DNA from: Luteitalea sp.
Lineage (GTDB): Bacteria; Acidobacteriota; Vicinamibacteria; Vicinamibacterales; Vicinamibacteraceae
NCBI GenBank assembly: GCA_009377605.1
Contig: WHTT01000016.1
Span: 28,490 to 87,059, forward strand
Direction: 5' to 3'
DNA: 58,570 nucleotides
Of this stretch, positions 336 through 3,282 are shown in pieces. The notes below the pieces were generated by a model. It was given only the letters and a program-made list of their open reading frames with translations, was not told the origin of the DNA and searched no databases. Positions within the stretch are counted from its first letter, which is position 1, and every line of letters begins with the position of its first letter. Position numbers and translations under genes: made by a program.

Positions 336-396
336 CGTAGCGCAGGCCTTCAGGCCTGCCTATGCCACATGGCAGGGCTAAAGCCCTGCGCTACGT
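336..396. repeat. Interspersed palindromic repeat, copy 1
   Basis: The segment opens with CGTAGCGCAGG, contains the palindrome GCAGGCCTTCAGGCCTGC, then a second inverted pair (CAGGGCTAAAGCCCTG), and closes with GCGCTACG, the inverse of its start. The same core recurs at 2856-2916, and a related one lies in the rRNA spacer at 58146-58168. The TAG stop of the HAD gene (391-393) lies inside the element. Confidence 0.7.
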
Positions 397-1083
397 ACTC
401 TCCAAGTTGGCGAGCGTCAGAAAGCCGGGCGTATCACTGAGATCATCGAGCACCACGTCTGCTCCGCACGCACGCAGGTCGTCAGCCGAGTAGATGCCGG
501 TCGCCACCGAGATGCATCGCGCCCCGCCAGCACGCGCGCAGGCGACGTCGCGCGGCGTGTCGCCAATGATCAGCACGGCGTCCGGCTCAATCGAGGTCGA
601 CGTTCGGCGGCGGTACCGCTCGAGCGCCACCGGCAACAGCTCGTTTCGATCATACGCGTCGTCGCCAAACGCTCCCCAGCCGAAGTAGCGCCACAGGTCG
701 TAGAAGCGAAGCTTGATCTCGGCGGCTTCGGGGAAGTTTCCCGTCAACAAGCCCAGCGTGACGTCGTCACGTGTGCCGAGGGCCGCGAGGAGCGACGGGA
801 CGCCTGGCAGCACGCCTGGGGCGCCGTCGCTTGCCGAGAGCTCGTCGCGCAAGAACGTGCGGTACGTGTCGCGGATCCGTGCAAGCAGCACGGCATCGAG
901 CCGGCGTGCGGTTGACGACAGGACATCGCGCAAGATGATGCTGTCGGTGCGGCCAGCGAGCGCCACACGATTGATCTGGTCGGGAACCTCGCACACCGTC
1001 TGGAGCGCGCGCGTCATGGCGCGTAAGCCCGCGCCGCCGGTGGCGATCAAGGTGCCGTCGATGTCGAAGAGAAGGAGCTTCAC
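391..1083 (-). CDS. HAD-superfamily phosphatase (phosphoglycolate phosphatase-like)
   Basis: A 230-residue soluble protein with all four HAD motifs. Motif I is FDIDGTL (nucleophile D7, acid D9), motif II has T114 in LLTGN, motif III has K124, and motif IV is GDTPRD (D175, D179). The helical cap between residues 15 and 95 is typical of the subfamily IA phosphatases that hydrolyse small phosphomonoesters such as phosphoglycolate. The real substrate cannot be read from sequence. It lies 45 bp downstream of the ABC-like gene on the same strand, with a heptamer repeat between. Its last codons and stop fall within an interspersed repeat, so the original C-terminus may have been altered. Confidence 0.85.
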   Translation of the reverse strand: MKLLLFDIDGTLIATGGAGLRAMTRALQTVCEVPDQINRVALAGRTDSIILRDVLSSTARRLDAVLLARIRDTYRTFLRDELSASDGAPGVLPGVPSLLAALGTRDDVTLGLLTGNFPEAAEIKLRFYDLWRYFGWGAFGDDAYDRNELLPVALERYRRRTSTSIEPDAVLIIGDTPRDVACARAGGARCISVATGIYSADDLRACGADVVLDDLSDTPGFLTLANLEST

Positions 1084-1128: not shown

Positions 1129-1845
1129 TTACCGCCAGAGTCGCCATCCTCGTGACGCCGGCGTTATTCGACCGGTGCTCGGATTGAGCTTCAGTCGCCG
1201 CCGCGCAATGGCATTCGCAAACGCGTGGTCCTCGCTCACGGCAACGACGGTGAGGCGACGTTCGGCGGCCCCGGCGACAGTCCGGACGAGGGCCCCAAAG
1301 GCAGCGCTGTCGGCTGCTTCGAGCGAAAGCGTCGGGTGCTCGAGCAGCAACAACGACGGCGCGAGCGCCAGGGCTCGTGCCAAGTGCAGGCGCATTCGAT
1401 CGAATGGCCCGAGCTGAGCGGCTGGACGCTCGAGGGCCTCGCCGCCGAGTCCGACGTCGGCGCCTGCGGCCTCGGCACGTGCCGCATCCGCGGCGCCTAG
1501 CGGCTCGATCTGGACCGTGAACGGAAGCGCCAGGTTTTGCCGCACCGACAGGCGCTCGAGCAGCACATTGCGCGGCGTGACCAGGCCGAGTCGATCGAGC
1601 GAGGCGAGCCAGGCGTCACCATCGCCGATGTCCCTCGTGGACTGACCGAAGAGACGCACATTGCCGGTGTCCGGGATGACGAAGCCATTCAGGAGGTTGA
1701 CGAACACTTCACCCGCCGCGGCGTCTAGGCCTGACAGCGCCACGCGCGCACCATGCTCCACCTCCAAGGCTTCGACGCGGAGTGGCCGGAGGCCGTGATA
1801 GTCCTTGACGAGATCGCGAATCTCAATGACGAGTGGCGTGTCCAC
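1129..1845 (-). CDS. ABC-ATPase-like protein lacking the nucleotide-binding motifs
   Basis: A 238-residue protein laid out like an ABC ATPase domain: IEIRDLVKDYHGLRPL at the N-terminus, a middle segment like the Q-loop region, then an LARALALAPSLLLLEHP block. The key residues are replaced. The Walker A position reads SGLDAAAGEV (residues 38-47) with no GKS/T; the signature position reads LGPFDR (145-150) rather than LSGGQ; Walker B reads LLLLEHP (165-171), lacking the Asp-Glu pair. The GTG at 1845 was chosen because the fold begins there and it lies 13 nt after the fur stop; an upstream ATG at 1941 would overlap fur. Probably co-transcribed with the Fur-rubrerythrin gene. It may be a regulatory or scaffold pseudo-ATPase; no permease is nearby. 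Confidence 0.75.
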   Translation of the reverse strand: MDTPLVIEIRDLVKDYHGLRPLRVEALEVEHGARVALSGLDAAAGEVFVNLLNGFVIPDTGNVRLFGQSTRDIGDGDAWLASLDRLGLVTPRNVLLERLSVRQNLALPFTVQIEPLGAADAARAEAAGADVGLGGEALERPAAQLGPFDRMRLHLARALALAPSLLLLEHPTLSLEAADSAAFGALVRTVAGAAERRLTVVAVSEDHAFANAIARRRLKLNPSTGRITPASRGWRLWR

Positions 1846-1858
1846 GCGTGAAGTCTGG

Positions 1859-2833
1859 TCACGCGTTTGCCCGCGCAGCCTGTGTGGTGCGGGATCCACC
1901 GGATCGGCGCCCGCGCTTCCCGGTGTAGGCGCGCAGCTCACCGAGGAGCAGATTCAGGTGATCGCGCTCCTCGTCCGCGAACTCGAGGAAGATTCGCTTG
2001 CCTTCCGAATCCTCGAAGCGCTCACCGTACTTCTTGAAGAACTCGTACGACCCACGCTCGCAGCGAATGGCGATCTTCAGCGCATCGAGGTCGCTGGACA
2101 CCTTGGTCAACTCTGTCGCCGCGGCCGAGAAGAGCCCGTTCGCGGCACCCTTGAAGAAGAGGAATGGCGGCCGCGCCTCGAGCTCGGGGTCTTGTTTGAG
2201 GAGCTCTTCATAGCGCGACTCGAGCTTGTGGAGATGATCCACCTCTTCGCCGGACAAGCGCTGGAAGATCGTGCGCGCGCGGGCGTTCTTCGTCATCCGC
2301 GCCGCGCGGGCGTAGAAGTCGCGGCCGGAGCGCTCGGTGGCAATCGCTATCCGCAAGGCGTCGCGCGCAAAGAGCATCTCGGTCGTCTTCTCGTCTCCCT
2401 GGGGGCGGCCGGTCCGGCACGCCTCGCACATGCCGTGGATCTGCAACACCGTCTGGCCCATGTCGAAGCCACGGACCGAGGCAACTTCCTCGACCAGCGA
2501 CTCGATGTCGGAGCTGAGGAACTCGAACGACCGACCGCAGGACTTGCAGACCAAATGGAAGTGTCGAGGATGCCGATAGGAATGCTCGAAGCGGAATCGT
2601 CCCTCACCGAAGTCCACCTTGCGTGCGATGTCGTTCTGCACCATCCATTGCAGCGTGCGGTAGACCGTGGCACGGCTGATGCGGTGATCCTCCCGACGAA
2701 TCAAGTCGACCAGATCGTCGGCGCTGAGATGCCCCTCCTGGCGCAGGAACACGTTCACGATGAAATCACGCTTGTTGGAGCGCTTGGTTCCCTCCGGACG
2801 CACGCGGTCGATTGACGTCTCGGTTCGATGCAT
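1859..2833 (-). CDS. Fur-family regulator fused to a rubrerythrin-like di-iron domain
   Basis: A 324-residue two-part protein. Residues about 15-85 form the Fur winged helix (ISRATVYRTLQWM is the recognition region), followed by the Fur dimer/metal domain with structural CxxC pairs at C96/C99 and C136/C139. Residues 157-305 form a ferritin-like four-helix domain with two repeats. Each repeat supplies a Glu and an ExxH (E167 with E197-H200; E259 with E289-H292), the ligand set of rubrerythrin di-iron sites. Fur proteins repress iron or peroxide genes; rubrerythrins reduce peroxide or react with oxygen. The fusion suggests a regulator carrying its own redox or iron sensor, which is inference. 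The ATG at 2833 was preferred to 2881, which begins in a repeat. Confidence 0.88.
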   Translation of the reverse strand: MHRTETSIDRVRPEGTKRSNKRDFIVNVFLRQEGHLSADDLVDLIRREDHRISRATVYRTLQWMVQNDIARKVDFGEGRFRFEHSYRHPRHFHLVCKSCGRSFEFLSSDIESLVEEVASVRGFDMGQTVLQIHGMCEACRTGRPQGDEKTTEMLFARDALRIAIATERSGRDFYARAARMTKNARARTIFQRLSGEEVDHLHKLESRYEELLKQDPELEARPPFLFFKGAANGLFSAAATELTKVSSDLDALKIAIRCERGSYEFFKKYGERFEDSEGKRIFLEFADEERDHLNLLLGELRAYTGKRGRRSGGSRTTQAARANA

Positions 2834-2952: not shown

Positions 2953-3282
2953 CTATGCGCTGAACGACGACCCGCAGCCGCAGGTGCTCTTCGCGTTGGG
3001 GTTCTTGATCGTGAAGCCGCCGCCAGCGAGATTGTCGACGAAATCCACCTCGGCGTCCTTCAGATACCGTGAGCTGATAGGATCGACGAACAGCTTGATC
3101 CCGTTCGACTCGACGATCTGATCCGCATCGGTGGTGCCGTCACCCTCTTCGATCATCAGGCCATACTGGAAGCCAGAGCAGCCACCACCTTGCACGAAGA
3201 CACGCAGGCCAGCTTCCTGCTTCTGCTCCTCGGTCAACAGCTCTTGGATCTTGGTGGCGGCGCCGGATGTCACGGTAATCAT
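2953..3282 (-). CDS. Iron-sulfur cluster insertion protein, IscA/ErpA/HesB family
   Basis: A 109-residue protein of exact family length. It has the three conserved cysteines: C35 in QGGGCSGFQYG and C101/C103 in STCGCGSSF near the C-terminus. A-type carriers use these to hold and pass on Fe-S clusters to apo-enzymes in the cytoplasm. The start ATG at 3282 has a GGGAG Shine-Dalgarno 8-9 nt upstream (TCAGGGAGTGCACACATG), which excludes the longer reading back to 3576. It stands alone without isc or suf genes, which fits ErpA-like use. Subtype (ErpA versus IscA) is not resolved. Confidence 0.93.
   Translation of the reverse strand: MITVTSGAATKIQELLTEEQKQEAGLRVFVQGGGCSGFQYGLMIEEGDGTTDADQIVESNGIKLFVDPISSRYLKDAEVDFVDNLAGGGFTIKNPNAKSTCGCGSSFSA

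Follow-up and report, generated by a model that had tools for sequence, protein, structure and literature searches.

A Fur domain fused to a putative rubrerythrin-type di-iron bundle in the Vicinamibacterales, a candidate two-module iron regulator

The locus and the fused reading frame

The window, that is, the whole 58,570-nucleotide stretch of the Luteitalea sp. contig analysed here, contains a gene whose predicted product joins a Fur domain to a ferritin-like domain (Table 1). The gene is a single unbroken frame of 324 codons and a stop, running on the minus strand from an ATG at 2833 to the stop at 1859, with a possible alternative GTG start at 2881, 5' of this ATG. A preliminary description made from the sequence had placed a Fur and a rubrerythrin di-iron domain in one chain at exactly this position, and both domains were recovered above the curated Pfam cut-offs: FUR at residues 15-132 (E 3e-25, 89 bits against a cut-off of 23.1) and Rubrerythrin, PF02915, at residues 158-297 of the same chain (E 2e-12, 48 bits against a cut-off of 22.8). 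By sequence, the first 142 residues had Fur-family relatives in the PDB, and the remaining residues were related to the ferritin-like proteins 2fzf and 1vjx. No NCBIfam model matched the chain above its own cut-off, and each match there covered one domain only, so the fusion has no curated name in that collection. A rubredoxin domain was absent from the chain by Pfam, and residues 306-324 form a short tail that contains no cysteine.

Table 1. Features of the fusion locus, in window positions
Feature	Position	Strand	Description and basis
Fur-rubrerythrin fusion gene	1859..2833	minus	324 aa; open frame, Pfam, same chain across the order
Fur domain, about residues 13-144	2402..2797	minus	winged helix; Pfam, alignment
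Ferritin-like putative di-iron domain, about residues 154-305	1919..2374	minus	helices A-D; Pfam, alignment, model
A-type Fe-S carrier gene (PF01521)	2956..3282	minus	directly upstream; Pfam
ABC-transporter ATPase gene (PF00005)	1132..1851	minus	directly downstream; Pfam
HAD-family hydrolase gene	394..1083	minus	next after the ATPase gene; Pfam

The surroundings of the gene were partly conserved. The Fe-S carrier gene was directly upstream and on the same strand in 68 of the 70 named loci with room for it, and an ABC-transporter ATPase gene lay within 3.5 kb downstream on the same strand in 46 of the 74 with room. A PHP-domain protein was encoded downstream in 57 of the 74 loci with room; it is missing in the window, where the ATPase gene follows immediately. 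Fusion genes beyond the order Vicinamibacterales had different surroundings. No electron-donor gene was found among the named neighbours of the fusion.

The Fur half

The roles of the metal ligands in the Fur domain were assigned by alignment with Fur chains and with the ligand list in passages of PMC4866751. The Cys pairs for structural zinc that had been reported as intact in the preliminary description are Cys96/Cys99 and Cys136/Cys139, and the regulatory ligands, all of Fur type, are His35, Glu83, His91, His93 and Glu104. In an alignment of 109 related rows, the first Cys pair was kept in 106 (the others being two gaps and one X) and the second in 108 (one gap), while the five regulatory ligands were kept in 105-107 rows, the others being gaps or X. 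Glu83 was found in 106 of the 109 rows (three gaps) and position 104 was Glu in 107 (two gaps). These rows are not independent, as some of the same genomes appear twice, genome handles and named contigs overlap, and L002 and L031 are identical over the fusion gene; there were 53 rows at less than 85% identity.

The ligand set bears on the kind of signal that the Fur site may receive. PerR binds its metal with His37, Asp85, His91, His93 and Asp104, and Fur proteins have Glu in place of Asp104, a residue that is held to decide peroxide access and sensitivity; in Zur, a Cys ligand replaces that at Asp85/Glu83 (all in passages of PMC4866751). By these rules a PerR-type site was rejected, position 104 being Glu and not Asp, and so was a Zur-type site, the ligand at position 83 being Glu and not Cys. 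With Glu104, the Fur site itself should be insensitive to peroxide under the rule as it stands in those passages. Peroxide input, if there is any, should therefore come from the di-iron domain. Among the Foldseek matches listed, only Fur chains were found.

The putative di-iron bundle

The C-terminal domain contains Glu167, Glu197xxHis200, Glu259 and Glu289xxHis292, the two E/ExxH sets already seen in the preliminary description, which we take to be di-iron ligands from the ligand patterns of rubrerythrins and bacterioferritins. The set is of the symmetric bacterioferritin/COG1633 type, and its six residues were kept in 108-109 of the 109 rows, the one gap being at 167. Cys258 (window positions 2060-2062), beside Glu259, was found in all 109 rows of the order and in none of the 18 full-length fusions outside it.

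An AlphaFold2 (AF2) model of the monomer without metals, built from a 39-row alignment, had a mean pLDDT of 82.5 and a pTM of 0.63, with lower confidence (block pLDDT 64-81) over the metal-binding half of the Fur domain. Helices were predicted at residues 148-180, 184-214, 248-272 and 277-309, and every one of them bears its ligand or ligands. Residues 147-310 of the model matched, in VIA, the COG1633 protein 2oh3 (Z 15.7), rubrerythrin 1ryt (Z 14.5) and 2fzf (Z 14.4), along with Dps and bacterioferritins at Z of about 14; all of the matches listed were ferritin-like. Helical bundles may score up to about 13 from their common arrangement alone, so it is the sequence match that carries weight for the bundle. 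Together, the alignment and the model indicate that the C-terminal domain is a four-helix ferritin-like fold with paired E/ExxH motifs, a putative di-iron site.

Comparison with the closest relative gave a dN of 0.025 and a dS of 0.77 for the Fur half, and a dN of 0.025 and a dS of 0.67 for the bundle half. The dN/dS ratio was thus about 0.03 in each domain; in the tail, dN was 0.31 and dS 0.86. These substitution rates show strong purifying selection on both domains, and their conservation indicates that both halves matter.

Distribution of the fusion

The Luteitalea genome (97.5% complete) contained one PF01475 match and one PF02915 match, and both were the fusion gene. A search for the same architecture, as suggested in the preliminary description, was extended to 72 genomes of the order that are at least 95% complete; a Fur domain was found in 71 and the long fused frame in 69, and in all 69 the bundle profile had a long match to that frame. 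Two genomes (G029 and G049) had an unfused Fur domain only. In one further genome of the order (G075; 99% complete, 7.2 Mb), Fur-family, FeoB and bundle matches were all absent. The fusion was the sole Fur-family match in 40 of the 72 genomes. The preliminary description had allowed for a frameshift or stop between the two domains, which is excluded by the same chain in the genomes of relatives, and the idea that an assembly join led to two genes being read as one was rejected as having a negligible probability, as the fused frame is open in 69 of 72 independent assemblies of the order, some of them single-contig, and on named contigs from many projects.

Among 100 genomes of relatives, the fusion was the best match, at E ≤ 1e-48, in 92, a few of these matches being ended by contig edges; of the other eight genomes, five had no match and three an unfused Fur-like match only. 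Outside the order, eight genomes of the same class had weak stand-alone matches to the bundle profile or none. A profile of the fusion matched 342 of the 396 genomes in a phylum sample, mostly by the Fur part only beyond the order, and both domains were matched in 41 genomes of the order and at least 28 other genomes of the phylum. Seventy-nine named contigs bear the fusion, nearly all of them titled Acidobacteria or Acidobacteriota and many Vicinamibacterales, the nearest (92%) being a Luteitalea bin. The record titles place the order in soil, sediment, groundwater and sea. Four contigs titled Acidimicrobiia or Woeseiaceae (L051, L064, L075 and L099) carry the fusion as well, and these bins are probably misnamed. 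No match to the fusion was found on viral contigs, and none of the 68 plasmid records that matched covered 80% of the query.

In a tree of Fur domains based on 63 of 75 rows, from which 12 long, deviant or truncated rows had been dropped, a single clade of fused Fur domains was not rejected (p-AU 0.50). In the tree of all 75 rows, the fused and unfused groups need several changes, and one of these rows (L210) is a fusion that was ended by a contig edge. Both a single origin and two origins of the fusion are compatible with the trees.

A ligand-poor family

The six di-iron ligands were also examined in 29 fusions from 28 genomes outside the order. They were complete in all 18 fusions that do not belong to family f42. 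In f42 (L148-L152, L154 and L232-L236), 10 of the 11 fusions lacked one to five of the ligands and one was complete; the domain was retained and every Fur ligand was present in all 11. That the domain was retained despite the lost ligands suggests that it is also of use without the metal site.

An additional Fur-family match was found in all 11 f42 genomes, compared with 8 of the 17 other genomes outside the order, the fusion being the sole Fur-family match in the remaining 9 of those 17. None of the 10 ligand-poor fusions was the sole Fur-family match, compared with 9 of 18 intact fusions outside the order (hypergeometric 0.007, a value that assumes independent rows, which these, being related by common descent, are not). 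The di-iron site may have been kept where sensing depends on the fusion, and have been lost in one lineage in which another regulator is able to sense instead.

Canonical and derived boxes

The canonical Fur box is TGANAATNATTNTCA. It was found in only 3 of the 72 genomes of the order, and the Luteitalea genome contained no exact copy. Elsewhere in the phylum it was present in 17 of 26 genomes with Fur only and in 12 of 24 with the fusion, two sets that were not matched for base composition. The box was upstream of feoB in two genomes of family f59 (G188 and G305) in which the fusion is the sole Fur-family match, and beside a ferritin gene in two genomes of family f35 (G122 and G146) that have further Fur-family matches. 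Sixteen loci with a canonical box were classified: eight were within a long frame, four at feoB or ferritin genes, and four at other or unnamed genes. In 102 regions upstream of the fusion gene, canonical boxes were in no excess compared with shuffled sequence. Two boxes with one mismatch in the Luteitalea genome were unconvincing, one lying inside an efflux-pump frame and the other at the first codons of a sugar-kinase-like frame.

A different palindrome, TGAGA-N5-TCTCA, was found in the feoB upstream regions of the order, with the same 7-1-7 layout as the canonical box. This derived box was spotted in an initial set of 20 such regions, 9 of which have it, and was then tested in 20 more (10 of 20). 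In all, 19 of the 40 feoB upstream regions contained it, compared with 0.19 sites expected from a background of three sites in 819 kb around fusion genes. Control patterns gave no sites when swapped or reversed, three with a four-base spacer and none with a six-base spacer. The exact box was absent from the other 21 of the 40 regions, and none was found at a second type of locus in the order that matches FeoB_N (n = 30). The fusion was the sole Fur-family match in 10 of the 19 genomes with the box. One of these 19 genomes (G049) is one in which the fusion was not found. In another (G031:C4:58469-60130), which also has the fusion, an unfused fur gene adjoins feoB and the box lies just before fur; this box is counted among the 19 and is far from feoB, and the fur-feoB cluster is perhaps an acquired iron cluster.

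The Luteitalea genome contained two exact derived boxes in 455 kb. The first, TGAGACTGGATCTCATTCTCA (G000:C4:56802-56816; L325:10663), is 28 bp before the FeoA gene (PF04023) of a feoAB cluster. This box has a third half-site, and on the other side of its intergenic region lies a divergent OsmC-like gene (PF02566), which raises the possibility that iron uptake and peroxide defence share an operator. The second exact box (G000:C16:28087-28101; L324:19598, and also L031:10937) lies about 400 bp to the left of base 1 of the window, where it precedes a conserved 75-codon frame with no Pfam match and the gene for ribosomal protein S4. Boxes with one mismatch showed no excess over the swapped control in the same 455 kb (4 compared with 5), and the operon of the fusion gene itself had no derived box in its promoter.

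A proposed two-module iron regulator

These results are best accounted for by a two-module iron regulator, to which as a whole a probability of about 0.5 is assigned, and the parts of this explanation differ in strength. The derived box at feoB, including that just before feoA in the Luteitalea genome, makes it very probable that the fusion is an iron-responsive repressor of feoAB. From the single chain, its conservation, its frequent standing as the sole Fur-family match, the ligands, the predicted fold and the feoA box, we infer that the fusion binds the derived box and represses. The N-terminal Fur domain would form a dimer, take up Fe(II) at the regulatory ligands and repress feoAB, and probably other genes too, through TGAGA-N5-TCTCA. 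The C-terminal bundle, with its symmetric Glu/Glu-His and Glu/Glu-His set, would be loaded with a di-iron centre when iron is sufficient, and this centre would react with O2 or H2O2. If the centre were oxidised or lost, the Fur dimer joined to the bundle would change in stability or geometry, and repression would in this way report iron and oxidative state together.

The part played by the di-iron site is less certain. Oxygen or peroxide input through this site is plausible from the conserved ligands, Glu104, the adjoining Fe-S carrier gene and the chemistry familiar from this family, in which di-iron bundles normally have O2 or H2O2 as a reactant, and it is judged to have a little under an even chance. 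We suppose, more tentatively, that the bundle is occupied by iron, that it undergoes a redox reaction and that this reaction is coupled to DNA binding. Coupling between redox state and repression is made more likely by the Fur-type Glu104 and is weakened by the loss of ligands, with the domain kept, in 10 of 11 f42 fusions. The preliminary description had proposed that a single chain could couple redox sensing to iron-responsive repression; of this, the regulatory half has gained in strength from the sole Fur-family match and the derived box at feoAB, and the redox coupling keeps the conditional form in which it was put. A dual-input master regulator that replaces stand-alone Fur throughout the order, with O2- or H2O2-gated DNA binding, an operator of its own and "blind" variants in f42, is tentatively suggested, the odds being somewhat against it.

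The bundle could instead be a second iron gauge or local buffer, which would bind Fe(II), or oxidise and hold a pair of irons, and would add a further threshold with no redox signalling. The symmetric type of the ligand set is consistent with this, as are the iron genes that are the visible target and the loss of the site only where another Fur-family protein exists. However, iron is already sensed by the Fur site, and bundles of this kind normally undergo the oxygen or peroxide reaction given above, so that a second gauge appears unlikely.

It is quite improbable that the protein is bifunctional, with a bundle that clears H2O2 or Fe(II) from around the DNA by peroxidase or ferroxidase activity and a fusion that serves only to place it there. 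Rubrerythrins do scavenge peroxide, according to passages of PMC5114695, and the fusion is the sole PF02915 match of the Luteitalea genome, but the rubredoxin domain is absent, no electron-donor gene is among the named neighbours, and the copies of a transcription factor in a cell would probably be too few for much detoxification. A purely structural bundle, which would aid the formation of dimers or higher oligomers and keep its metal site only for folding, would fit the f42 fusions, which retain the domain with one to five ligands gone in 10 of 11. It is very doubtful as a general explanation, since none of the 18 fusions outside both f42 and the order has lost any of the six ligands, each of which was kept in 108-109 of the 109 order rows (one gap), and the dN/dS of the bundle is as low as that of the Fur half.

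If the two-module iron regulator is correct, it concerns Fur, one of the best-studied bacterial regulators, and the division of iron sensing and of oxygen or peroxide sensing between Fur and PerR, which is a central question. Here a di-iron module of an oxygen- or peroxide-reactive type is joined, throughout an order, to what is often the only Fur-family protein of the cell, and one protein may inform the cells of this order of both iron and oxygen or peroxide. Direct tests can use the derived box as their DNA target and the ligand-poor fusions of f42 as a natural control.

Comparison with known systems

Di-iron bundles serve as iron- or oxygen-sensing modules in FBXL5 and in other hemerythrin-fused regulators. 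These have a hemerythrin fold and a different output, and the likeness to the fusion is drawn with no claim of homology. Both modules of the fusion are known, and domain-architecture databases may well include the fusion; in open-licence PMC, no paper on a Fur-rubrerythrin fusion was found, nor any description of the derived box or of such a chain as the only Fur-family protein in much of an order. A natural fusion of a rubrerythrin module to a different functional protein is the hydrogenase-rubrerythrin chimera of Clostridium perfringens (PMC11926857); it is an enzyme, whereas the present fusion would be a regulator.

Rubrerythrin and the COG1633 proteins (1ryt, 2oh3 and 2fzf) share with the fusion a four-helix bundle with the pattern E...ExxH...E...ExxH. 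Classical rubrerythrin has a C-terminal rubredoxin domain, whereas the fusion has none and carries an attached DNA-binding domain. PerR belongs to the same family as the Fur half, and a Fur-family repressor that responds to peroxide would be a concept common to both; however, PerR has Asp85 and Asp104 where the fusion has Glu83 and Glu104, so the histidine-oxidation mechanism of PerR is not expected. The closest likeness is to Fur itself, with which the fusion shares the fold, both CxxC zinc pairs, the His/Glu ligands with Glu104, the ATVYRTL recognition helix and a box at feoAB. Fur differs from the fusion in having no di-iron domain and in its canonical TGATAAT-type box, in place of which the order has TGAGA-N5-TCTCA.
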